This document shows positions 23,831 through 38,221 of a stretch of 38,221 nt of DNA, piece by piece. Made by a program: the position numbers and the translations under genes. The notes under the pieces are model-generated. The model searched no databases. It saw only the letters and a list, made by a program, of their open reading frames with translations, and was not told the origin of the DNA. The stretch lies in the IMG/VR virus record IMGVR_UViG_3300050821_004882, positions 1 through 38,221 of that record; one strand, 5' to 3'. How positions within the stretch are numbered: the stretch's first letter is position 1; every line of letters starts with the position of its first letter. The stretch is from a virus.

Positions 23831-24034
23831 ATGAATAAGCAGATGATTACTCGCGGACAATATGAATATCTGAGATCTCAGGGTGCTAAAAATAATGTCA
23901 AAGTTTGTTATGTGGTTCGAGACTTGTTTCCTTATATCCATATCCATAATCATGAATTCGACAATTTCGCAATGGCGCTTCGGTATCTTCAGCAGGATTC
24001 TTTAAACGTGATTCAGATGGAGGCGGTAGCGTGA
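23831..24034 (+). CDS. Small protein, unknown
   Basis: A 67-aa protein with an excellent binding site (AAAGGAGG). It predicts a small alpha/beta fold (YEYLRSQGAKNNVKVCYVV). Coupled to the next gene by GTGA. Confidence 0.5.
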   Translation: MNKQMITRGQYEYLRSQGAKNNVKVCYVVRDLFPYIHIHNHEFDNFAMALRYLQQDSLNVIQMEAVA

Positions 24035-24300
24035 AAAAAAGTTTTCAAGCTTGCGATAAGAAAGGATTCCATCTTACTTTTCCCAACGGGATTGTTCTAT
24101 CAACACAATTTGGGCCTGGGAATTATGGTGATAATTATGATTCTCCATTTGATGGAGAAAAGTCTTTTGATGCCAATATGGTTGAAGTGGCAATTTTCAA
24201 GGCGGATGGGTGCAGCTGGATAACAAAAGAATACCGGGATCTTGGGGATGATGTCTTAGGAAGAATTGATTTCGGGGAATGGTTAAAAATATTCGATTGA
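24031..24300 (+). CDS. Small protein, unknown
   Basis: An 89-aa protein starting at GTG in a GTGA overlap. Contains FHLTFPNGIVLSTQFGPGNY, a beta-hairpin pattern found in small proteins of many phages; end is acidic. Function unknown. Confidence 0.5.
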   Translation: MKKSFQACDKKGFHLTFPNGIVLSTQFGPGNYGDNYDSPFDGEKSFDANMVEVAIFKADGCSWITKEYRDLGDDVLGRIDFGEWLKIFD

Positions 24301-24323
24301 TGTCGTGCATACAAGGCTAAGCC

Positions 24324-24467
24324 ATGAGTCAATTGCAACCGATAGACCTAGCCTATTATCAAAGTTGGTACTTTTGGATTTCTACTTTAATTTTGATTGT
24401 TGGATTAGGACTATGGTTAAAGCCGAAGAAGAAATGGAAGCGTGATGATATAGGCGGGGGGCAATAA
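24324..24467 (+). CDS. Small single-span membrane protein
   Basis: A 47-aa protein: a short polar N-terminus, one transmembrane helix (residues about 14-32, SWYFWISTLILIVGLGLWL) and a basic tail KPKKKWKR, which suggests the tail stays in the cytoplasm. No good binding site. Its stop overlaps the start of the ATPase gene (TAATG). Confidence 0.45.
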   Translation: MSQLQPIDLAYYQSWYFWISTLILIVGLGLWLKPKKKWKRDDIGGGQ

Positions 24468-25492
24468 TGGGACTTTTGAAGGAAGCGACAAACCAATCAG
24501 CCTATCTTAAAGCTGGAATCCAGGGTTTTGCTGGATCAGGTAAAAGTATGACAGCAGCTAAAATTGCGATTGGATTACATAAATATATTAAATCCACAAA
24601 ACCTATTGCTTTTATCGATACGGAAACGGGATCGGATTTTGTTTTGCCTCTTTTCAAAGAAGCTGGAATTGAATTGGTAACAATGAAAAGCCGGGCTTTC
24701 GTTGATCTTTTGGAAGTAACTAAAGAAGCGGAAAAAACATGCGATGCGATTATTTACGATTCCATTACTCATTTTTGGGATGAATTGGTGAAAGCTTATG
24801 AAAATAAACGTGAAAAGAAAAAACTTCGGGTCTGGGATTGGGGGCCTATTAAAAAAGAGTGGCGACAATTCACTGACCTTTATCTCACTTCCAAAATCCA
24901 TTCGATAATGTGCGGGCGTAGTGGATGGGTATATGGAGACAAAGAAGATGAGGAAGGCGTTTTGGAAACGCATCGGGTAGGTACCAAGATGAAAGTTGAG
25001 ACGGATATGGGGTATGAACCTTCTTTACTTATTGAAATGGAAGTAAAAAGAACGACTGATTCAACACCTATTGGTTCTAAATTCGTGAATCAGGCATGGA
25101 TTCTTAAGGATCGTTTCGACAAGATCCAAGGGAAATGTTTCCAGTTTCCTAACTTCGAAGATTTCTTGCCGCATATTAAACTTTTGAACTTAGGGGGCGA
25201 TCATGTTGCATTCGATCAAGCAGCTAATTCTCAAGATTTATTCGATGGTCCAGCATCGCGTGTGGAATGGGAGAAACGACGCGCTATCGCATTGGAAAAT
25301 ATCGTCAACGAGCTTCTTAAGCGCTGGCCGGGACAGACGGCGATTGAAAAAAAATCGAAGCTCGCTTGTCTCGAATCGATATTCAAAACCGGATCTTGGA
25401 CTGAGATAGAAGGGAAAAGTGTTGAAGAATTAGAAGGTGGGCTAATAATGATTCGAGAGATTCCAGAATACCAAAAGGAGCCAGTTAAATGA
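24467..25492 (+). CDS. Sak4-like RecA-fold ATPase (AAA_24 type)
   Basis: A 341-aa ATPase with a Walker A motif at residues 20-27 (GFAGSGKS) and a Walker B near Asp98 (DAIIYDS). The N-terminal layout, with Walker A about 20 residues in and FIDTETGSDFVL after the first helix, fits phage nucleotide-binding proteins related to Sak4 single-strand annealing/recombination ATPases. It likely loads on single-stranded DNA with the product of the following gene, which overlaps it by four bases (ATGA). The C-terminal 100 residues (from about 255) are a helical extension of unknown role. Confidence 0.72.
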   Translation: MGLLKEATNQSAYLKAGIQGFAGSGKSMTAAKIAIGLHKYIKSTKPIAFIDTETGSDFVLPLFKEAGIELVTMKSRAFVDLLEVTKEAEKTCDAIIYDSITHFWDELVKAYENKREKKKLRVWDWGPIKKEWRQFTDLYLTSKIHSIMCGRSGWVYGDKEDEEGVLETHRVGTKMKVETDMGYEPSLLIEMEVKRTTDSTPIGSKFVNQAWILKDRFDKIQGKCFQFPNFEDFLPHIKLLNLGGDHVAFDQAANSQDLFDGPASRVEWEKRRAIALENIVNELLKRWPGQTAIEKKSKLACLESIFKTGSWTEIEGKSVEELEGGLIMIREIPEYQKEPVK

Positions 25493-25842
25493 TTGAAAGA
25501 ACAGATACGAATATAGGATTGCCGGTTGGACATTATGTCTTTACTGTCTCTAGTCCTGTTGAAAAAAGGAAATTTGAGAATAATGACAAAAAGTTTTATC
25601 TATTCAAATTTACTGTGCAAATAGGTGAAAATTTAATGGAACATCAAGAAAGAATCCCGGTGTGGATGGCAGCGGAAATAATTAAAGCTGTAGGTGGGAA
25701 AGAAATAACGCCGGGTGTTTTTGAGTGGGACCGAGATGGAGTAATAGGAGAACAAATTGAGGGCGATATCGTCCTAGAGAAAGTTAAAGATGGGAAAGAA
25801 TATAAAAGACTTCGAAATATTAAACAGAAGTTACCATTTTGA
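25489..25842 (+). CDS. Probable single-stranded DNA-binding protein (OB-fold)
   Basis: A 117-aa beta-rich protein directly coupled to the Sak4-like ATPase. It has GHYVFTVSSPVEKRKFENND, YLFKFTVQIGEN and EGDIVLEKVKDGKEYKRLRN, consistent with an OB-fold, and ends in LPF, reminiscent of SSB tips but without the acidic stretch. In other phages Sak4-like genes are often paired with SSB genes. The call is from context and fold pattern, not motif. Confidence 0.45.
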   Translation: MIERTDTNIGLPVGHYVFTVSSPVEKRKFENNDKKFYLFKFTVQIGENLMEHQERIPVWMAAEIIKAVGGKEITPGVFEWDRDGVIGEQIEGDIVLEKVKDGKEYKRLRNIKQKLPF

Positions 25843-25925
25843 TTTATTGTAAAAAATGTCATTGGATTTGTTGGAATCTTGACCAACTATTAAGACATAT
25901 TATGGACTGTTGGGATGGATGTTAA
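25839..25925 (+). CDS. 28-aa putative C2HC zinc-finger microprotein
   Basis: A possible gene below usual size cut-offs. TTG overlaps the previous stop (TTGA), and the product has Cys4, Cys7, His20 and Cys24 in CxxC-x12-HxxxC spacing, typical of a single zinc finger (MIYCKKCHWICWNLDQ then LLRHIMDC). The coupling style matches its neighbours. Short length keeps confidence low. Confidence 0.35.
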   Translation: MIYCKKCHWICWNLDQLLRHIMDCWDGC

Positions 25926-25977
25926 TTTTCCCGTCGCTCTTACCGTAACCTGCCAAGGATCTGGGGGAGCGGCGGGA

Positions 25978-26074
25978 TGGGGTCCGAAGAGAGTTCGGTG
26001 CGATCACTCCCCGCGCTGCTGACGAGCAGAAGGCGCAGTGACTCAATAGGAGAGTTCAAGTCTCTCCAACCCCG
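25978..26074 (+). ncRNA. tRNA-like element 1
   Basis: A closing helix TGGGGT (25978-25983) with ACCCCG (26069-26074); a D-arm-like hairpin CCGAA/TTCGG with loop GAGAG (25984-25998); a long central arm TCACT/AGTGA (26004-26008 with 26037-26041), GCGC/GCGC and TGCT/AGCA capped by GACG; and a T-arm-like hairpin GAGAG-TTCAAGT-CTCTC (26050-26066). The T loop has the canonical TTCAA start. There is no 7-base anticodon loop, so charging is unlikely. Confidence 0.5.
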
Positions 26075-26082
26075 CGAATTTT

Positions 26083-26223
26083 GCGGATGGCGGCGTAAAC
26101 GGTGACACGCTTTACGGAGCGTTGTATTCACTATAAGGTTCGATAGAATCGATGAGTAAATTCTCCGATCCTAACGGAATATCAAAAACGAATACAAGTC
26201 GGTTCAATTCCGGCTCATCCGCA
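26083..26223 (+). ncRNA. tRNA-like element 2 with extended central arm
   Basis: An acceptor-like 8-bp helix GCGGATGG (26083-26090) with TCATCCGC (26215-26222), then A at 26223; a D-arm-like hairpin GCGT/ACGC whose loop has GG (26093-26110); an 8-bp perfect stem TTGTATTC/GAATACAA (26122-26129 with 26190-26197); and a canonical T arm GTCGG-TTCAATT-CCGGC (26198-26214) joined without gaps. Inside the long stem are hairpins at 26140-26152 and 26164-26178; the latter has a 7-base loop ATCCTAA that looks like an Arg (CCT) anticodon loop. A competing hairpin CGTAAA/TTTACG exists at 26094-26116. Confidence 0.55.
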
Positions 26224-26228
26224 TAGAT

Positions 26229-26298
26229 TTGCCGTGGTGATGGATCACCTATAAGCCCTTCACTAAAAGGCAATCACGCTCGATTCGTGACACGGCAA
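26229..26298 (+). ncRNA. tRNA-like element 3 (tRNA-sized, degenerate)
   Basis: At 70 bases this unit is close to tRNA size. TTGCCGTG (26229-26236) pairs with CACGGCAA (26291-26298). A D-like hairpin GTGA-TGGA-TCAC follows at once, a middle hairpin GCCCT/AAGGC (26255-26271) has one mismatch and a 7-base loop TCACTAA, and a T-arm-like hairpin TCACG-CTCGATT-CGTGA (26274-26290) abuts the closing helix. The missing positions 8-9, the C at loop position 33 and the short variable region argue against a functional tRNA. Confidence 0.45.
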
Positions 26299-26317
26299 TT
26301 AATTTTAGGAGGCCAGC

Positions 26318-26575
26318 ATGTATAAGTTTGTGAAGCGGGAAGATATTGATAATGCTTTTGGTGGTTTCGATCAGGATGCTTCTGAAATAAAATTAAATAA
26401 ATTGGCTTTGCGTCTTCTCTCCGAGCGCGATGTTTACCGGGAAATGGCGACCAAATTTTATCGGGACGAATTACCTTATTGCACAGGAGAAGATGGCGAA
26501 TGTTATTGCGATCCACAATGCCAACTTGAAATAGTCGACGCCGAAGCCGCGAGGATCATGGAGGGGAAGAAATGA
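26318..26575 (+). CDS. Small protein, unknown
   Basis: An 85-aa acidic protein with a strong AGGAGG site. It has a Cys cluster (YCTGEDGECYCDPQC) near residues 54-68 that may bind metal. First gene after the RNA locus; coupled to the next by ATGA. Confidence 0.5.
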   Translation: MYKFVKREDIDNAFGGFDQDASEIKLNKLALRLLSERDVYREMATKFYRDELPYCTGEDGECYCDPQCQLEIVDAEAARIMEGKK

Positions 26576-26781
26576 ACTGTAAAATCTGTGGAAAAGAGGA
26601 TATGTTTACCTATGTTAGCGGGAAACCGGCTTGTGCCATTTGTGTTGTTAAATACATCGGTGGTGGGCCAATTACCAATGAAAGAGTTCAGAGGGTTCGG
26701 TATATGCTCGGCCTAAAAGATGACGAATATTTAAAGCAAGACAATGCCAAAGAAGCGGCTAAAATACTTGGATTGTCATGA
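26572..26781 (+). CDS. Small zinc-ribbon protein
   Basis: A 69-aa protein with CKICGK near the start and CAICV at residues about 21-25, a compact zinc ribbon, followed by a helical tail (NERVQRVRYMLGLKDDEYLK). ATGA overlaps join it to both neighbours. Function unknown. Confidence 0.55.
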   Translation: MNCKICGKEDMFTYVSGKPACAICVVKYIGGGPITNERVQRVRYMLGLKDDEYLKQDNAKEAAKILGLS

Positions 26782-27137
26782 CCCTCGCGCCCGAAAGGAG
26801 CAGTAGGGAAATAGCGGAAGAACTTTTCTGGCTCTGTTACAAAATTTACAAAGGCGACATAGACCCTGGAAAGTATAAATGGTGCCATGATCCAATAACA
26901 GCAGCCCTCGACGCCGCGAAGGAAGAAGGCCGAATGGAAGGCGTTAGATCATGCATCGCATATTATCAAGCGGGCTTTGTTAAAGGACAAGAGAGGATGA
27001 GGGAAAAAGCGGCGAAATCAATTGGATCTTGTATGCAGCCTTATTTTATGAATCCGAAGTGTGGTTGCCCAGCGTGTATATGGTCAATAGCTATTCGCGC
27101 CATCCCAACGATCCCGGAGAAGGAGACGGAGAAATGA
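26778..27137 (+). CDS. Small helical protein with Cys cluster, unknown
   Basis: A 119-aa protein; a helical N-terminal two thirds (SREIAEELFWLCYKIYKGDI, ALDAAKEEGRMEGVRSCIAY) and a Cys group NPKCGCPACIW near residue 92-102. Such 'AAxxEGxxxGxxxxxxAY' helices are common in small phage proteins. Coupled by ATGA. Confidence 0.5.
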   Translation: MTLAPERSSREIAEELFWLCYKIYKGDIDPGKYKWCHDPITAALDAAKEEGRMEGVRSCIAYYQAGFVKGQERMREKAAKSIGSCMQPYFMNPKCGCPACIWSIAIRAIPTIPEKETEK

Positions 27138-27358
27138 ACGAGAAAGAGGCGAGAGAGATTGTCGCCAATTTTAAAAATAAACCGGCTTACATTTATGACA
27201 TCGCTAATTTTGAGAAAGCCAAAGGCTACCTCGAGGCTATCGAGAAGGCGGAGCGGATTTTTACAGTCGCTTTGAAAGGTTTGATTGAATGTCCTGGCCA
27301 TTGCGTCCATACAGATGATGCCAAAGAAGCCGTCGCCAAATGGGAGGCAGAGAAATGA
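27134..27358 (+). CDS. Small protein, unknown
   Basis: A 74-aa helical protein (EKAREIV-type start, then FEKAKGYLEAIEKAERIFTV). The ATG at 27134 overlaps the upstream stop; a longer in-frame start at 27029 lies inside the previous gene and is rejected. Contains CPGHCVH near the end. Confidence 0.5.
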   Translation: MNEKEAREIVANFKNKPAYIYDIANFEKAKGYLEAIEKAERIFTVALKGLIECPGHCVHTDDAKEAVAKWEAEK

Positions 27359-27546
27359 AAGACGGCGGACCAGCATTTCCGACACATCCCGAATATATTA
27401 AAGGCATGTCCATCCGCGATTGGTTTGCGGGGATGAGCTTAATGGGCCGTCGAGCAAATCCTCATATTGCCCAGAGCGCAAACCAATCAGATGAATGTTA
27501 TGGAGATGCCGATGCCATGCTGGCTGAGAGGGAGAAAGAAAAATGA
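27355..27546 (+). CDS. GGPAFP/RDWFAG family small phage protein (copy 1)
   Basis: A 63-aa member of a widespread small phage/prophage family: KDGGPAFPTHPEYIKGMSIR, DWFAG and DADAMLAEREKE. Function unknown. ATG at 27355 overlaps the previous stop (ATGA) and has GGAGG upstream; an ATG at 27340 is in frame but would place the binding site inside the gene. A longer relative follows immediately. Confidence 0.6.
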   Translation: MKDGGPAFPTHPEYIKGMSIRDWFAGMSLMGRRANPHIAQSANQSDECYGDADAMLAEREKEK

Positions 27547-27845
27547 AAGCTGAAATTATGGGTTGTGCGAAACATCAGTTAGTAAATTGCCATGAATGCA
27601 TGGCGCCGGAATATAGACAACTAAGAGACGGCGGATCAGCTTTTCCAGTAACTCATATGGTTGATCTACCAAGGCCAATGGCGGATCTTGTTATTAAAGG
27701 CGGCATGTCCCTCCGCGATTGGTTTGCGGGGAAATTTGCGCCAGGAATATTAAGAATTATGGGAGAAGCAAAGAACGAAGATATTGCACGCCAATGCTAT
27801 TCATTGGCCGACGCCATGCTGGCTGAGAGGAAGAAAGAGAAATGA
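27543..27845 (+). CDS. GGSAFP/RDWFAG family small phage protein (copy 2)
   Basis: A 100-aa paralogue of the preceding gene. Residues about 30-100 share the pattern RDGGSAFPV, GGMSLRDWFAG and ADAMLAERKKEK. The N-terminal 25 residues add a Cys/His cluster (CAKHQLVNCHECM). Coupled by ATGA on both sides. Confidence 0.6.
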   Translation: MKAEIMGCAKHQLVNCHECMAPEYRQLRDGGSAFPVTHMVDLPRPMADLVIKGGMSLRDWFAGKFAPGILRIMGEAKNEDIARQCYSLADAMLAERKKEK

Positions 27846-27949
27846 AAGCAGGAGATGTCTTTTTATTATCCGTCTTCGTGATGATCTTCATTTATTTTGG
27901 TGGGCTATTTATTTGGGAAGGACTTTTTAAAAAGAGGAAAAGAGATTGA
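27842..27949 (+). CDS. 35-aa single-span membrane protein
   Basis: A very small gene: residues 5-27 are a transmembrane helix (DVFLLSVFVMIFIYFGGLFI) and the end is basic (KKRKRD). It overlaps the previous stop by ATGA. The stop codon overlaps the -35 box of the promoter that follows. Confidence 0.45.
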   Translation: MKAGDVFLLSVFVMIFIYFGGLFIWEGLFKKRKRD

Positions 27950-27975
27950 CAAATTTAATGAATTTGCGGTAAATT
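27946..27975 (+). promoter_or_regulatory. Sigma-70-type promoter before the initiator gene
   Basis: A perfect TTGACA (27946-27951) and TAAATT (27970-27975) with an 18-base spacer lie in the only large gap of this part of the early region. It would express the replication initiator and resolvase independently of the upstream small genes. Confidence 0.6.
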
Positions 27976-28102
27976 AAATTAATGCGAGGCTCAAAAACAT
28001 CTTTAAAAATCGACAGGGTTAATTCCTTGCCAGTCTTTTTTTGCCCTCGCGGCGCTATCGGGCCTCGCAGTTCGTTCGCGCATAAGTCGGGGGCATCTTT
28101 TT
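27976..28102 (+). promoter_or_regulatory. Structured 5' leader of the initiator gene
   Basis: This 127-base leader has TGCGAGGC (27983-27990) matching GCCTCGCA (28062-28069), an 8-bp perfect long-range helix, and a T7 run at 28036-28042 on the + strand between. Such a leader may set translation or stability of the initiator mRNA. No known riboswitch is recognised. The ATG at 28103 has only GGGGG 9-13 bases upstream. Confidence 0.4.
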
Positions 28103-28885
28103 ATGTGGATTGAATCACACGCTGATCTGGGAGAACATCCTAAATTGGCAGAATTATGTTTTAATTTAGCGATTAAAAAGCATGAAGCTATTGGGTATTT
28201 ACATCTTCTTTGGCACTTCACTTTGAAGTACGCTTGGCGTGACGGCGATTTACGCCGTTTTACGGCGCGCGTCATTTGTGAGGCCGTTGGATGGGATAAA
28301 GATCATGATACATTCATCAATACTTTGATGCGATGTGGTTGGATTGATGAAAGCACAATGATGGTACATGATTGGTTGGACTACGCGGGAAAATTGGTGA
28401 AAGACAGGCTTTATAATGAAAAACGCCGTAATACGCCGTTAAACGACGTTTTACGCCGTAAAAGTGCCGCTACCATACCTAACCATACCATACCTAACAG
28501 AAAGACAACTACATCTTCATCAACTGACGTTGATGGATTTGAAGAGTTTTGGAAAGCGTACCCGAAAAAAGTGGGGAAAGGGGCGGCTGTTAAAGCTTGG
28601 AAACGAGCTATAGGTTCTGGGGGCATCGAACTTTCAGCCGTTTTAAATGCTATTGCTTCTCAAAAGCGGTGTGAGCAGTGGCAGCGTGATGGAGGGCAGT
28701 TTATCCCGCATCCGGCGACTTGGCTCAATCAATCACGCTGGCTTGATGAGATGCCGATAGCTAATCATTCCGCGCATTTAAATGGGTTTGTTGAAAATTT
28801 CGCTGAGAAATTGGCTCAAAAAAAGCAGGAATTAGATATGATCAGGGAAAAAGAATATACGCGGAGGAAGATAACAAATGGATAA
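28103..28885 (+). CDS. Replication initiator / replisome organiser
   Basis: A 260-aa protein. Residues 1-105 look like a winged-helix DNA-binding domain as in DnaD/phage initiators (WIESHADLGEHPKLAELCF, GYLHLLWHFTLKYAWRDG, ICEAVGWDKDHDTFINTLM). Residues about 148-225 have the C-terminal pattern of phage replication proteins: FEEFWKAYPKKVGKGAAVKA and QFIPHPATWLNQSRW, shared with DnaT/O-type proteins that recruit the helicase. The gene holds iteron-like repeats, as expected for an initiator that binds an origin in its own gene. With no phage polymerase present, host replication proteins must do synthesis. Confidence 0.75.
   Translation: MWIESHADLGEHPKLAELCFNLAIKKHEAIGYLHLLWHFTLKYAWRDGDLRRFTARVICEAVGWDKDHDTFINTLMRCGWIDESTMMVHDWLDYAGKLVKDRLYNEKRRNTPLNDVLRRKSAATIPNHTIPNRKTTTSSSTDVDGFEEFWKAYPKKVGKGAAVKAWKRAIGSGGIELSAVLNAIASQKRCEQWQRDGGQFIPHPATWLNQSRWLDEMPIANHSAHLNGFVENFAEKLAQKKQELDMIREKEYTRRKITNG
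28242..28470 (+). repeat. Iterons, candidate replication origin within the initiator gene
   Basis: Four 10-bp units in exact phase lie at 28421-28460 (AAACGCCGTA, ATACGCCGTT, AAACGACGTT, TTACGCCGTA), with a degenerate fifth at 28461-28470. A second cluster upstream has CGCCGT at 28253-28258 flanked by inverted copies (ACGGCG at 28242-28247 and 28262-28267). Just downstream, CCATACCTAAC is repeated at 28473 and 28488. The arrangement resembles lambda-type origins placed inside the initiator gene. Confidence 0.6.
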
Positions 28886-29075
28886 AATTTTTACTTGGAA
28901 AGGGAAATCGTCATCCGAATGTTCACGCGAAGAACTTTTGGAATTAATCGATCAAATGACTATTAATATAAATCAATTACAGCAAGTTTATGAATCACAT
29001 GAAATTAAAAAACTACAACATGAAATTGAAAAACGTGATGCGGTGATCGAATTTGCGAAATCGTTAAAACGATGA
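28878..29075 (+). CDS. Small coiled-coil protein
   Basis: A 65-aa helical protein (NINQLQQVYESHEIKKLQHE) overlapping the end of the initiator gene by 8 bases and the resolvase start by 4 (ATGA). Function unknown; may help the initiator or RusA. Confidence 0.5.
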   Translation: MDKIFTWKGKSSSECSREELLELIDQMTININQLQQVYESHEIKKLQHEIEKRDAVIEFAKSLKR

Positions 29076-29428
29076 AAACGCTGGCGTTTGTGGTTGAAGG
29101 GAAGCCAAAAAGCTGGAAAAGAGTATCAACTAACAAATATAGGGCTAAATTTGATCCAAATGCGCCGTATAAACGTTATATCGGGCAAATTGCGTTGGCT
29201 CAACGTAACGGGATGGGCTTTAAACTCACTAGGATGCCCGTAGAGGCACGATTAGGGTTCTTTGGTGTAAATATGCGGTCGGACGTTGATAACCTCGCAA
29301 AAACGATCCTGGATGCCTTAAACGGAGTCGTGTGGTTTGATGATTCGCAAGTTAAAAGCTTGATTGCCACAAAAACAGCGTTCGGACCGCCTAAAACTGA
29401 AATTGAAATCACTTGGGATGAAGAATGA
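29072..29428 (+). CDS. rusA: RusA-like Holliday junction resolvase
   Basis: A 118-aa endonuclease expected to cut four-way junctions formed in replication/recombination, clearing DNA for packaging. Motifs: VEGKPKSWKR near residue 8 and NMRSDVDNLAKTILDALNGV followed by FDDSQV, giving catalytic-site residues Asp71, Asp73 and Asp91 and Lys77, in RusA spacing. Length is typical. ATGA overlaps on both sides. Confidence 0.9.
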   Translation: MKTLAFVVEGKPKSWKRVSTNKYRAKFDPNAPYKRYIGQIALAQRNGMGFKLTRMPVEARLGFFGVNMRSDVDNLAKTILDALNGVVWFDDSQVKSLIATKTAFGPPKTEIEITWDEE

Positions 29429-29541
29429 GTAGCGACGGAAAACAATGGATGGTTTTAATTGCTGTCATCGGAGGTATAATTTTGATTACTGTTATTGGGT
29501 CAATTATATTTACCAAATTGCTTATGTTAATATCCTGTTGA
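29425..29541 (+). CDS. 38-aa single-span membrane protein
   Basis: A small gene coupled to rusA (ATGA). Residues 8-36 are hydrophobic (MVLIAVIGGIILITVIGSII), ending in Cys. Function unknown. Confidence 0.45.
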   Translation: MSSDGKQWMVLIAVIGGIILITVIGSIIFTKLLMLISC

Positions 29542-29554
29542 CAAGATAACCGAT

Positions 29555-29659
29555 ATGTGCAAAACTTGCTTGGAACTTTATCAGCTTGACTTGCATCCAC
29601 AAACATGCACATGCGAATGCCATTTTGAAGATTTGCCTATTTTTGGTAATGTTGCGTAA
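29555..29659 (+). CDS. 34-aa Cys-rich microprotein
   Basis: A short open frame with CKTC at residues 2-5 and CTCECH at residues 18-23, which could bind a metal ion. No strong binding site. TTGACA (29538-29543) upstream has no convincing -10 partner. Real gene status is uncertain. Confidence 0.35.
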   Translation: MCKTCLELYQLDLHPQTCTCECHFEDLPIFGNVA

Positions 29660-29660
29660 T

Positions 29661-29768
29661 ATGTGGACATTTGATGATTTTAGAGCGCCAACAGAATGGG
29701 AAATGGATGAATACGCTTATCCGGAGCCTTTAATGACTTTTAGAGAATGGGAATCGATATTTCGTTAA
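29661..29768 (+). CDS. 35-aa acidic/aromatic microprotein
   Basis: Starts one base after the previous stop. Trp/Tyr/Glu-rich product (MWTFDDFRAPTEWEMDEY). A longer in-frame start at 29586 lies inside the Cys-rich frame. Weak ribosome binding site, so confidence is modest. Confidence 0.35.
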   Translation: MWTFDDFRAPTEWEMDEYAYPEPLMTFREWESIFR

Positions 29769-29771
29769 ATC

Positions 29772-29954
29772 ATGAAGCCACCAAGGAAATGTTTATGGTG
29801 TCATGCTAAAGTCAAAAATAGAAAATGCATTAAATGCAACACAGAATATTCTCAAAGCTCAACTCACCCGAATTATACCGCACGCAAGAAACCAAACCAA
29901 GATCTACGCAATACTTCAGGACGGTGGGTTGACAAAATAAGGTACATAGACTAA
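29772..29954 (+). CDS. 60-aa zinc-ribbon protein
   Basis: CLWCHAK and CIKCN form a compact zinc ribbon at residues about 7-22; the rest is basic and polar (HPNYTARKKPNQDLR). Last gene of the early region before the late promoter. Could bind nucleic acid. Confidence 0.5.
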   Translation: MKPPRKCLWCHAKVKNRKCIKCNTEYSQSSTHPNYTARKKPNQDLRNTSGRWVDKIRYID

Positions 29955-29963
29955 AATGCGTAC

Positions 29964-30016
29964 TTGACAAACTAAAATTAAAATGGTAAGAGTCTCGCTT
30001 AGGTCAATCCTGAGAC
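29964..30016 (+). promoter_or_regulatory. Late-operon promoter candidate with overlapping inverted repeat
   Basis: TTGACA (29964-29969) lies 17 bases from TAAGAG (29987-29992), a weak -10. An inverted repeat GTCTC (29992-29996) / GAGAC (30012-30016), with inner AGG/CCT, covers the expected start point and may be an operator or a 5' hairpin. It sits directly before the small terminase gene, where the late region begins. A weak -10 next to a perfect -35 could reflect activator dependence; that is inference. Confidence 0.5.
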
Positions 30017-30035
30017 GCACCTACTAGAGCTAACT

Positions 30036-30557
30036 ATGGATAATGTTGAACCAGAAAACATAACATCAAATCCAAATCAATTCACAGATTTATCAACACA
30101 ATCCACATCAATTCCATCAAAACCTAAACGTAATTACGACAAGAAAGTCCATGGAAAGCGATACAATCTAGCAACAAAGATCGCTATTGCTGCAATGCAA
30201 GGAACAGGATTGAGTGCGACTCAAGCTGCTGCCGCTACTGGCGCTCACATTTCGACAATAAGTAGAGCATGGGATAATCCAGAGCTTGCAGAGCTTACAC
30301 CTCAAGTAGTGCAAAAGACTAAAAGTGGATTAGGTGGACTTTTTTACAAACGTGCATTAGGAAGCTTACTTGAGCTTACACATGAAAAGCTTAGAGAATC
30401 AAGCGCTTTACAGCTTGCAACCACAGCCGGAATCATGGTTGACAAGGCAAGATTGATGGAAGGATTGAGCACAGAAAATGTGTCGTTCCGTGGTGTCACA
30501 GAAGCTATTGAAAGCGACCGAGAGAAGCTTATGAAGCGCATTGAGGAACTTGGTTAG
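30036..30557 (+). CDS. terS: Terminase small subunit
   Basis: A 173-aa DNA-binding protein expected to recognise the packaging site. After a basic polar arm, residues about 45-85 form a helix-turn-helix (LATKIAIAAMQGTGLSATQA, AAATGAHISTISRAW) and the rest is a helical oligomerisation/motor-binding part (LLELTHEKLRESSALQLATT). Position about 2 kb before the large terminase and first in the late operon supports the call. The gene is filled with AGCTT repeats. Confidence 0.65.
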   Translation: MDNVEPENITSNPNQFTDLSTQSTSIPSKPKRNYDKKVHGKRYNLATKIAIAAMQGTGLSATQAAAATGAHISTISRAWDNPELAELTPQVVQKTKSGLGGLFYKRALGSLLELTHEKLRESSALQLATTAGIMVDKARLMEGLSTENVSFRGVTEAIESDREKLMKRIEELG

Positions 30558-30608
30558 CTTCTGATAATAACAATTATGTTCTAAAATATGAGAAGTTCAC
30601 GTAAGCTT
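30283..30608 (+). repeat. Cluster of AGCTT repeats in terS, candidate pac site
   Basis: AGCTT occurs at 30283, 30292, 30363, 30373, 30388, 30412, 30526, 30556 and 30604; several extend to AGCTTRCA. Pairs are spaced 9 and 10 bases. Four are AAGCTT palindromes. Nine copies in about 330 bases is far above chance, and small terminase genes often contain the packaging site. Confidence 0.45.
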
Positions 30609-30609
30609 C

Positions 30610-30915
30610 ATGTTTAAGCGAAAGGGAAAAGCCAAAAAACCATCCCTCACTTCCACCCCAGGTGGGGAGGGTCGGGGGCATGGGGGTAGGGGTAATTTTA
30701 ATATACCCCCCTCTTCCAACGCACTAAACAAAAAGATTCGTCCATATAAGGAACCTATTTGTTCCTGTTCCCATAATTATGGGATTCTTGGGGTTGGTTG
30801 TATCTGTGTTTTCAGGACGGCAGGATTCATTCCTGAGTGCCACTTTCGCAATGGTGAATCGTTCTCCTTGGTTCGCAGTAAGATAGATGAGATGCGCTCG
30901 AAGATTAAGGTGTGA
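30610..30915 (+). CDS. Possible Cys-rich small protein
   Basis: A 101-aa open frame. The first 35 residues are basic and Gly/Pro-rich because they run through a G-rich tract. The rest has Cys/His pairs (CSCSH, CICVF, ECHFRNG) that might bind metal. No ribosome binding site is visible at the ATG (30610). It may be real or fortuitous. Confidence 0.35.
   Translation: MFKRKGKAKKPSLTSTPGGEGRGHGGRGNFNIPPSSNALNKKIRPYKEPICSCSHNYGILGVGCICVFRTAGFIPECHFRNGESFSLVRSKIDEMRSKIKV
30664..30716 (+). other. G-quadruplex-capable tract with facing C-run
   Basis: Five G-runs occur within 29 bases: 30664-30667, 30669-30671, 30674-30678, 30682-30686 and 30689-30692, with 1-3-base loops, meeting the usual G4 pattern. 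An AT-rich spacer and a C6 run (to about 30716) could instead pair with the last G-runs as a hairpin. It lies between terS and the small basic genes. Confidence 0.65.
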
Positions 30916-31066
30916 ATTTTTTGCAAAAAACAAAAAACAAAGGAATAATATGAAGCCGAAGAAAAAGCCGAAGTATTGAGCTAATGCGAATATTTTATAA
31001 TGTGGTAGAAAAGCGGGACGGCTACAATTTTGTCTAGCTTACTATGTTTCATGTGAGGATAAGGGA
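30916..31066 (+). promoter_or_regulatory. Intergenic region with perfect -10 box
   Basis: A TATAAT at 30996-31001 in TTTTATAATG context is a good extended-type -10; the best -35 at 17 bases (GTATTG, 30973-30978) is poor. It would transcribe the small basic genes from 31067. A 9-codon frame (30950-30979, KPKKKPKY) with AAAGGA upstream ends inside this promoter region and may be a leader peptide or chance. Confidence 0.35.
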
Positions 31067-31264
31067 TTGGCAGAACCTAAAGGCGAAAAGAAAGTAGCGA
31101 AGGTGATGCATGAGTTTGGTTCCGGGAAGCTTCATTCAGGATCGAAGCATGGTCCGGAGGTAAAATCGCGCAAACAAGCTATTGCGATTGGAATGAGCGA
31201 AGCCGGTCTATCCAAGCATGTGAAAAATTTTCATAAGGAAGCGAGGAGCGAAGGTGGATACTAA
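31067..31264 (+). CDS. Small basic protein, DUF6496-like
   Basis: A 65-aa protein of a small phage/bacterial family: KVMHEFGSGKLHSGSKHGP, then VKSRKQAIAIGMSEAGLSK. Basic and unstructured around a helix; function unknown. TTG start with GAGGA 7 bases upstream. C-terminus is FHKEARSEGGY; the final codons hold the next gene's binding site. Confidence 0.62.
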   Translation: MAEPKGEKKVAKVMHEFGSGKLHSGSKHGPEVKSRKQAIAIGMSEAGLSKHVKNFHKEARSEGGY

Positions 31265-31436
31265 ATCAGATTCAGGCGCATCTATTGACTCAGGAGACGA
31301 TAAGATATTGAATGGCGGGGAGTCTCCGGCGCCCGGATCTTATCCTATTGAGGTCCCGGCGATAGTCGGGGATGGTGGTAGTTTGAAGGACAAAGCGAAA
31401 GAATTTCATAAAGCTGCCAGTTTCGGAGGATATTGA
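31254..31436 (+). CDS. Small protein with FHKAA...GGY end
   Basis: A 60-aa protein starting at GTG (GAGGAG upstream) inside the end of the previous gene. N-terminal part is acidic/polar (DTKSDSGASIDSGDDK); the end KAKEFHKAASFGGY resembles the end of the previous protein, suggesting a shared short module. Function unknown. Confidence 0.5.
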   Translation: MDTKSDSGASIDSGDDKILNGGESPAPGSYPIEVPAIVGDGGSLKDKAKEFHKAASFGGY

Positions 31437-31437
31437 T

Positions 31438-31632
31438 ATGGCCGAGAAATGGATACAGAGCGCTATCAAACATCCCGGAGCGCTACATAAGGAATTGGGC
31501 GTGCCTGTAGGCGATAAGATCCCGCTTAAAAAGCTGCATAAGGCTGCTGGGATGGGTGGGGTTGAGGGTAAACGAGCAAGATTAGCTGAAACGTTGAAGC
31601 ATATCAATAGCTCTCATAAAGGGGAGAAATAG
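31438..31632 (+). CDS. Small conserved basic phage protein
   Basis: A 64-aa protein of a recognisable small phage family: AEKWIQSAIKHPGALHKELG, then KIPLKKLHKAAGMGG and KRARLAETLKHINSS. Very basic, suggesting DNA or RNA contact or packaging with DNA in the virion; role unknown. Start follows TGAT of the previous stop with GGAGG upstream. Confidence 0.65.
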   Translation: MAEKWIQSAIKHPGALHKELGVPVGDKIPLKKLHKAAGMGGVEGKRARLAETLKHINSSHKGEK

Positions 31633-31802
31633 TGCATCCTTTGGTTAAGAAAGCGATGCGTGGTCCAGAGTCAAAAGTACCGTTCCCATTCAACAAATCA
31701 ATTTCACTCAAAGATCACAAAAAGGAACTTCCGAAAGGCGAGCCGATTTCAGTTAAGAAGGGAGTTAAGGAAGTTTCAAAGGGGAGGCGTGATGGTTACT
31801 GA
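31632..31802 (+). CDS. Small basic protein, unknown
   Basis: A 56-aa protein starting at a GTG that overlaps the previous stop (TAGTG). Basic and Pro-rich (MHPLVKKAMRGPESKVPFPF; LKDHKKELPKGEP), ending in RRDGY. It fills what would otherwise be a gap, and its end overlaps the next start by 11 bases. Confidence 0.5.
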   Translation: MHPLVKKAMRGPESKVPFPFNKSISLKDHKKELPKGEPISVKKGVKEVSKGRRDGY

Positions 31803-31983
31803 TAAGCTATTTTTTAGCGCGGTTGAATCTCAGGGCAAGAAAGCGCGTGAAGCGTATATGCGGGCGAGGGGTGCGCATAATATTAAGGATACAGGCGAGA
31901 AAGATTTGAGAAAAGAGACGAAAGAGAAGCCGGTCGAAGGATCACGCGATCCCCAGCGGCAAAATACAGTAGGAGGTTATTAA
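31792..31983 (+). CDS. Small protein, unknown
   Basis: A 63-aa protein; ATG at 31792 has GGGGAGG upstream, which excludes the longer frame from 31660 (inside the previous gene). Helical start (VTDKLFFSAVESQGKKAREA), charged middle, and the end QRQNTVGGY. Confidence 0.55.
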   Translation: MVTDKLFFSAVESQGKKAREAYMRARGAHNIKDTGEKDLRKETKEKPVEGSRDPQRQNTVGGY

Positions 31984-31984
31984 G

Positions 31985-32248
31985 ATGGACGGAGAAAAGA
32001 TCAGTATCACAGGCAACAAGCCCGGCATCACGTCTTTTGAGGATTTCGATGTTTTTTCAGGTAAGGACGGGTTGAGCCGTGACGAATACAAAGCCTCAAC
32101 CTTCCGGAACGGAAGCCAGGACGATTCCGACCCGCAGTTCGAAAAGATGTCGGACCTAATGGAATCGACGGGTGGAACCGAGCATGGCGAAGAGAAGGTA
32201 GGTCGCACAGCCACCGAAACCGAAGAGGAGTCCAAGCTTGAACCCTAA
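31985..32248 (+). CDS. Small acidic protein, unknown
   Basis: An 87-aa acidic protein two bases after the previous stop, with GGAGG (encoding Gly-Gly) upstream. Contains GLSRDEYKASTFRNGSQDD; the end is Glu-rich. No family recognised. Its end overlaps the next start. Confidence 0.5.
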   Translation: MDGEKISITGNKPGITSFEDFDVFSGKDGLSRDEYKASTFRNGSQDDSDPQFEKMSDLMESTGGTEHGEEKVGRTATETEEESKLEP

Positions 32249-37991: not shown

Positions 37992-38221
37992 ATGGCAGCT
38001 CCCACAAATACATATCAGACGTACCAGGCGAAAGGTATTCGCGAGGATTTGATCGATATTATCGTCAATATTTCTCCGACGAAAACGCCGGTCCTTTCGA
38101 TGACTGAATCCGTTCGCGCCTTCTCGACTCTTCACGAATGGCAGACGGATGCTTTGAACGCTCCTTCCGCGAATGCATCTATTGAAGGAAATGATAGCTC
38201 GGCCACCGCAGTAACGCCGAC
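37992..38221 (+). CDS. Major capsid protein, SU10-like, 5' part
   Basis: The first 76 codons of the capsid gene, continuing at base 1 of the window after the duplicated end. The start MAAPTNTYQTYQAKGIREDL followed by IVNISPTKTPVLS and TLHEWQTD is characteristic of the SU10-like major capsid family. AGAGGTAAATTAAA precedes the ATG. Counting the join once (38123 to 1), the protein is 298 aa. Confidence 0.9.
   Translation, partial: MAAPTNTYQTYQAKGIREDLIDIIVNISPTKTPVLSMTESVRAFSTLHEWQTDALNAPSANASIEGNDSSATAVTP
38124..38221. repeat. Terminal direct repeat, right copy
   Basis: Identical to bases 1-98; marks the circular closure of the assembly. Confidence 0.95.

Follow-up and report, generated by a model that had tools for sequence, protein, structure and literature searches.

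The window, by which we mean the whole stretch of DNA analysed (38,221 bases, an apparently complete IMG/VR virus record), is a soil-type phage genome. It encodes an SU10-type major capsid protein and portal as well as a terminase, with the main genes on the plus strand. A 98-base direct repeat is found at its ends (1-98 and 38124-38221), and the contig appears to be a complete genome that was circularised and then cut inside the capsid gene. Searches for an integrase and for a Ro60/TROVE gene identified neither in this phage, and ARAGORN found no tRNA gene in the window. The genomes with relatives of the AAA gene are proteobacterial, so the host is probably a proteobacterium. The replication cluster comprises, in this order, a Sak4-like AAA ATPase, an SSB-like ORF, the array studied here, small ORFs, an initiator, and RusA. 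The array is framed by the following features:

24467-25492, plus strand: Sak4-like AAA ATPase (Pfam AAA_24, 5e-10; PHROG Sak4-like, 1.6e-7), which opens the replication/recombination cluster upstream of the array
25489-25842, plus strand: SSB-like ORF, the 5' neighbour of the gap, named for its position rather than for any family match
25843-26317, plus strand: non-coding gap of 475 nt that holds the array
26307-26312, plus strand: AGGAGG, by sequence the Shine-Dalgarno of ORF 26318, 9 nt past the end of unit 3
26318-26575, plus strand: ORF, the 3' neighbour of the gap

This gap is the largest on the plus strand of the window when ORFs of at least 50 aa are counted, and the ORFs lying wholly within it have only 24-42 aa. 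No promoter or terminator candidate was seen on its plus strand. It contains a leader hairpin and three tRNA-like units, with these parts:

25929-25977, plus strand: leader hairpin, directly 5' of unit 1, with a 13-bp outer stem (CCCGTCGCTC.../...GAGCGGCGGG) and no T arm
25979-26073, plus strand: unit 1, tRNA-like, about 95 nt
25979-25983 with 26069-26073, plus strand: unit 1 acceptor GGGGT/ACCCC, 5 bp only
25984-25998, plus strand: unit 1 hairpin A
26004-26041, plus strand: unit 1 long arm B, with a GACG tip
26050-26066, plus strand: unit 1 T arm, GAGAG-TTCAAGT-CTCTC (26049-26067 when its 6-bp stem is included), with one unpaired A before the acceptor
26083-26223, plus strand: unit 2, about 141 nt
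26083-26089 with 26216-26222, plus strand: unit 2 acceptor GCGGATG/CATCCGC, 7 bp, countable as 8
26094-26116, plus strand: unit 2 hairpin A, CGTAAA/TTTACG, with GG in the loop
26122-26129 with 26190-26197, plus strand: unit 2 helix B, 8 bp (TTGTATTC/GAATACAA), next to the T arm, with 60 nt enclosed
26164-26178, plus strand: CCT anticodon-like hairpin TCCG-ATCCTAA-CGGA, enclosed by helix B
26198-26214, plus strand: unit 2 T arm, GTCGG-TTCAATT-CCGGC
26223, plus strand: unit 2 discriminator A
26229-26298, plus strand: unit 3, about 70 nt, with an 8-bp acceptor (TTGCCGTG/CACGGCAA)
26237-26248, plus strand: unit 3 small hairpin GTGA-TGGA-TCAC (4-bp stem, TGGA loop)
26255-26271, plus strand: unit 3 weak third arm, GCC/GGC
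26274-26290, plus strand: unit 3 T arm, TCACG-CTCGATT-CGTGA

The original prediction, made from the sequence, was of three tandem non-canonical tRNA-like structures; their T arms lie at the predicted coordinates and are the only full ones in the 38 kb. The T-loop-like motif G[TC]TC[AG]ANYC occurs 19 times in the window (both strands); a full 5-bp stem accompanies three of these occurrences, which are exactly the T arms of the array and all lie inside the 475-nt gap. A strict search of the whole window for a T arm with a 7-bp acceptor returned two matches, units 2 and 3, where 0.1 per strand would be expected by chance (order-1 random sequence). The same kind of scan on T4 recovered most tRNAs and flagged the T arm of rnaC, for which the upstream acceptor strand that it chose is internal to the RNA. 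The stretch 25926-26300 (375 nt) folds with a z-score of -4.27, and none of 100 dinucleotide shuffles was as low. Sliding z-score scans along the window (one of them with a poor shuffle) did not single out the array region; the evidence for the array is the geometry of T arms and acceptors, not stability alone.

The predicted structures of units 1 and 2 can be held with high confidence. The helices of unit 1 have pair probabilities of 0.85-1.0, except for the GCGC/GCGC segment of arm B (0.15), and its fold z-score is between -2.3 and -3.0. In unit 2 (fold z-score -3.35), the pair probabilities are 0.99-1.0 for the acceptor and 0.91 for the T stem. The 8-bp stem proposed next to its T arm, helix B, is present, with a probability of 0.8-0.9 in seven of the eight pairs. 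A loop resembling a CCT anticodon loop had also been proposed in this unit: the sequence is there, but the stem of the ATCCTAA hairpin has a pair probability of merely 0.17-0.19. The leader hairpin alone has a fold z-score of -5.2. We considered it as a terminator and rejected this, there being no T run after the hairpin on either strand.

The predicted structure of unit 3 is held with moderate confidence. Its cloverleaf has an energy of -20.3 kcal/mol against -21.4 for the minimum, i.e., 1.1 above it. The T arm is not the most stable fold of the unit alone (in the free ensemble, its T stem reaches a probability of only about 0.17), and in its loop a C replaces the first T of the TTCRANY type. 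The acceptor helix of unit 2 can be extended by about 8 pairs (26074-26089 with 26216-26232), taking acceptor bases from unit 3, so that the two units compete at 26229-26232. Such an extension at the expense of unit 3 is a possible switch between both units.

Neither ARAGORN nor Rfam gave a tRNA, tmRNA, or other family match for the array, and a short stretch of it that includes the tRNA-sized unit 3 had no Rfam match even at E 10. This silence is weak evidence against a tRNA-like RNA because both programs miss T4 rnaC: in a control on T4 they found eight of the eight tRNAs and missed rnaC and rnaD. A 7-bp acceptor together with a 5-bp T stem and a TTCRANY-type loop is found in units 2 and 3, not in unit 1. 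A 5-bp anticodon stem with a 7-nt loop is absent from the units, as judged from pair probabilities and sequence, and none of them encodes CCA. As originally proposed, none of the three looks chargeable as a standard tRNA. The further suggestions of membership in known classes did not hold: no Rfam model of tmRNA, GOLLD, ROOL, or other large phage RNAs matched in the window, and a link to large phage RNAs near tRNA genes fails because this genome has no tRNA gene.

We searched for homologues of the array by its sequence and by the genes around it. Exact 22-mers of the array retrieved none in IMG/VR. The AAA gene as query led to one relative and then to 57 viral and 3 bacterial loci, none of which has the array. 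The SSB-like ORF retrieved no relatives, ORF 26318 gave only two short 16-residue matches, and the initiator retrieved the same phage and two distant relatives, neither of which has the array. Among 50,697 phage records (blastn), we found only T-arm-sized matches to real tRNAs and chance matches. One of the blastn matches, in Ochrobactrum phage vB_OspM_OC (L025, 574-659), is annotated as tRNA-Met(CAT) and has a long variable arm like those of serine and leucine tRNAs. The 299 sampled genomes, from one phylum, yielded no homologue and six weak matches; the three that we examined (L099, L100, L101) are not tRNA-like, and the first two lie in coding genes.

The closest phages give the same picture. 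No similar RNA was found in the stretches searched of the AAA relative (G001, 46% identical), nor, where covered, in the structural relatives G003, G004, and G006 (75-83% identity in terminase and portal). One further record (G002) is the same phage by protein identity and ends short of the array. Related phages likewise have long gaps between ORFs on the coding strand of the early region (L012, 2389-3177; L004, 5113-5575; L020, minus strand), and these gaps have no T arms.

Our preferred explanation, to which we give a probability of roughly 45%, is that the gap encodes three tRNA-like stable RNAs that are excised by the host and act in trans as tRNA mimics. RNAs of about 95, 141, and 70 nt, arrayed behind the leader hairpin, would be co-transcribed with the same-strand operon, cut out by the tRNA-processing enzymes of the host, and would then persist; that the units are processed stable RNAs is held with moderate confidence. 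As mimics in trans, they may occupy a host protein that binds tRNAs, perhaps a defence nuclease aimed at tRNAs, although such a decoy function is speculative. The T arm/acceptor part of a tRNA is the binding site for RNase P and the 3' processing enzymes as well as for the CCA-adding enzyme and EF-Tu, and each unit keeps it, with a T loop that is canonical or nearly so. The units cannot decode because other helices replace the D and anticodon arms. With the part used by the processing enzymes kept and the decoding part gone, host excision and mimicry make the most economical reading. Several defence systems cut tRNAs, which makes a counter-defence target attractive. Several points count against it: the array has no homologue, and hence no covariation support, in IMG/VR, the 50,697 phage records, and the 299 genomes; no CCA is encoded; no plus-strand promoter was seen; and the T arm of unit 3 is suboptimal.

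The array lies between two same-strand gene clusters and stops 9 nt before a Shine-Dalgarno, and its strongest rival explanation is therefore punctuation in cis, which we regard as unlikely but worth serious consideration. The folds would be sites for RNase P and the 3' tRNA endonuclease in a polycistronic transcript, detaching the Sak4-SSB message from the operon that follows and giving ORF 26318 a short leader ahead of its AGGAGG, and the excised pieces would have no job. It fits this scheme that the plus strand of the gap showed neither a promoter nor a terminator candidate. Yet a single site would be enough for it, so that three units with elaborate long arms exceed the need, and neighbouring phages with related genes do without such an element.

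A variant of the trans-acting reading, which we think doubtful, is a multi-unit decoy array: three non-decoding shoulders, each mimicking a different class of host tRNA, within a wider unannotated class that includes rnaC. These would soak up defence enzymes that target tRNAs, or else block the quality control of tRNAs.

The units could instead be the remains of a former tRNA cluster in decay, with arms lost or enlarged by insertions. Phage tRNA genes can decay, the T arms look tRNA-derived in both loop and stem, and the spacing of units 2 and 3 is tRNA-like. We find this improbable: units 2 and 3 keep intact acceptors and T stems and differ in the decoding parts alone, and units 1 and 2 have new arms in the shape of long, well-formed helices. 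Moreover, related phages have no tRNAs in the stretches scanned, and the tRNA-sized unit 3 is unmatched at E 10.

The position within the replication cluster (Sak4-like AAA, initiator, RusA) would suit a cis-acting DNA or RNA element for replication or integration, such as a structured origin or an attP-like tRNA piece, which we consider very unlikely. The phage has no integrase; an att site copies the 3' half of a tRNA only, whereas the array also has the 5' acceptor strands; and the 3' half of unit 2 has no match, at up to three mismatches, in the 299 sampled genomes. Least plausible of all is that the units are working tRNAs of a very unusual form, for instance carrying a long insertion. 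Unit 2 could then stand for Arg(CCT), given its 8+5 or 7+6 bp acceptor/T stack, its ATCCTAA loop, and the D-loop-like GG in hairpin A. Against this, its anticodon-like stem is improbable (0.19), helix B leaves no room for a variable loop, a 5-bp stem carrying a 7-nt anticodon loop is missing from units 1 and 3, and there is no CCA.

The presence of three RNAs with the architecture of T4 rnaC in an independent phage without tRNA genes argues that phages have repeatedly made use of non-decoding, tRNA-shaped RNAs, which escape standard annotation (ARAGORN, Rfam). If the units are mimics, as we favour, they would suggest a way to test whether phages counter immune systems that target tRNAs, and further cases could be sought by a simple rule, a T arm with a distant acceptor.

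Several known systems resemble the array in part. The tRNA-like domain of tmRNA shares with unit 2 a helix that adjoins the T arm and replaces the anticodon arm; unit 2, however, is too short, and a search for a tag frame in it gave nothing convincing. YrlA, a bacterial Y RNA, is a non-coding RNA with a tRNA-like module, as in the array, but the window has no YrlA match and the phage has no Ro60/TROVE partner gene. Among the phage loci, L071 (IMGVR 3300011715_000009, 1346-1461) has a 116-nt element whose acceptor is 8 bp long and whose T arm, GTTCGAATC, is perfect. Like the array, it has odd internal arms and no standard cloverleaf, and ARAGORN is silent on it; its sequence is unrelated. Its tRNA-likeness may be incidental because the related L030 shares only the outer helix: its inside differs and lacks a T arm.

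The nearest precedent is T4 rnaC (species 1 RNA; NC_000866 70908-71046, equal to L026 909-1047, minus strand), which folds into an acceptor, a long arm, a hairpin next to the T arm, and a canonical T arm. We know of no function found for it over decades. It occurs in 716-720 phage records (blastn) and, among the matches listed, is mostly unannotated or lies under 'hypothetical protein' or tRNA calls. We aligned nine diverse Tevenvirinae copies (T4 and the homologues L091-L098), in which 92.5% of the cells are paired. The covariation is strong: both sides have changed in 24 of the 49 pairs, some of them in the acceptor and some in the T stem, whereas shuffles gave 8.4 and sliding the partner gave no more than 6. 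The counted structure came in part from the T4 fold, which puts it at an advantage in the comparison with the slid ones. The acceptor is 7 bp and perfect or wobble-paired in two Yersinia phages, and the other copies have two U-U mismatches. The RNA was detected in infection and is expressed late (PMC9697503), and its role is given as unknown (PMC3014915).

Like unit 2, rnaC is phage-encoded and about 140 nt long and stacks an acceptor-like helix on a canonical T arm; where a tRNA would have its D and anticodon arms, both have other helices, in rnaC a long arm plus a hairpin that adjoins the T arm. Both encode no CCA, and ARAGORN and Rfam miss both. In contrast, their sequences are unlike, and rnaC stands alone next to a tRNA cluster, while the window carries an array of three and lacks tRNAs. 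We built a covariance model from the nine rnaC sequences; run without filters over 24000-32000, it placed units 3 and 2 at the top. Unit 3 scores 17.7 bits, unit 2 scores 9.0, and the remaining unit 2.5, against 158 for T4 rnaC itself. Since ordinary T4 tRNAs reach the same values (tRNA-Ser 18.2, tRNA-Gly 9.2 bits), the scores of the units reflect generic tRNA-likeness, not kinship with rnaC, and do not place them in its family. Judged by its predicted fold, the RNA of the window has an rnaC-like architecture, i.e., an acceptor and T arm with the other arms replaced, but not the sequence of rnaC. The feature is real and unusual. It varies a type of RNA that is already known, though not explained, and the class that matches it best is that of T4 rnaC.
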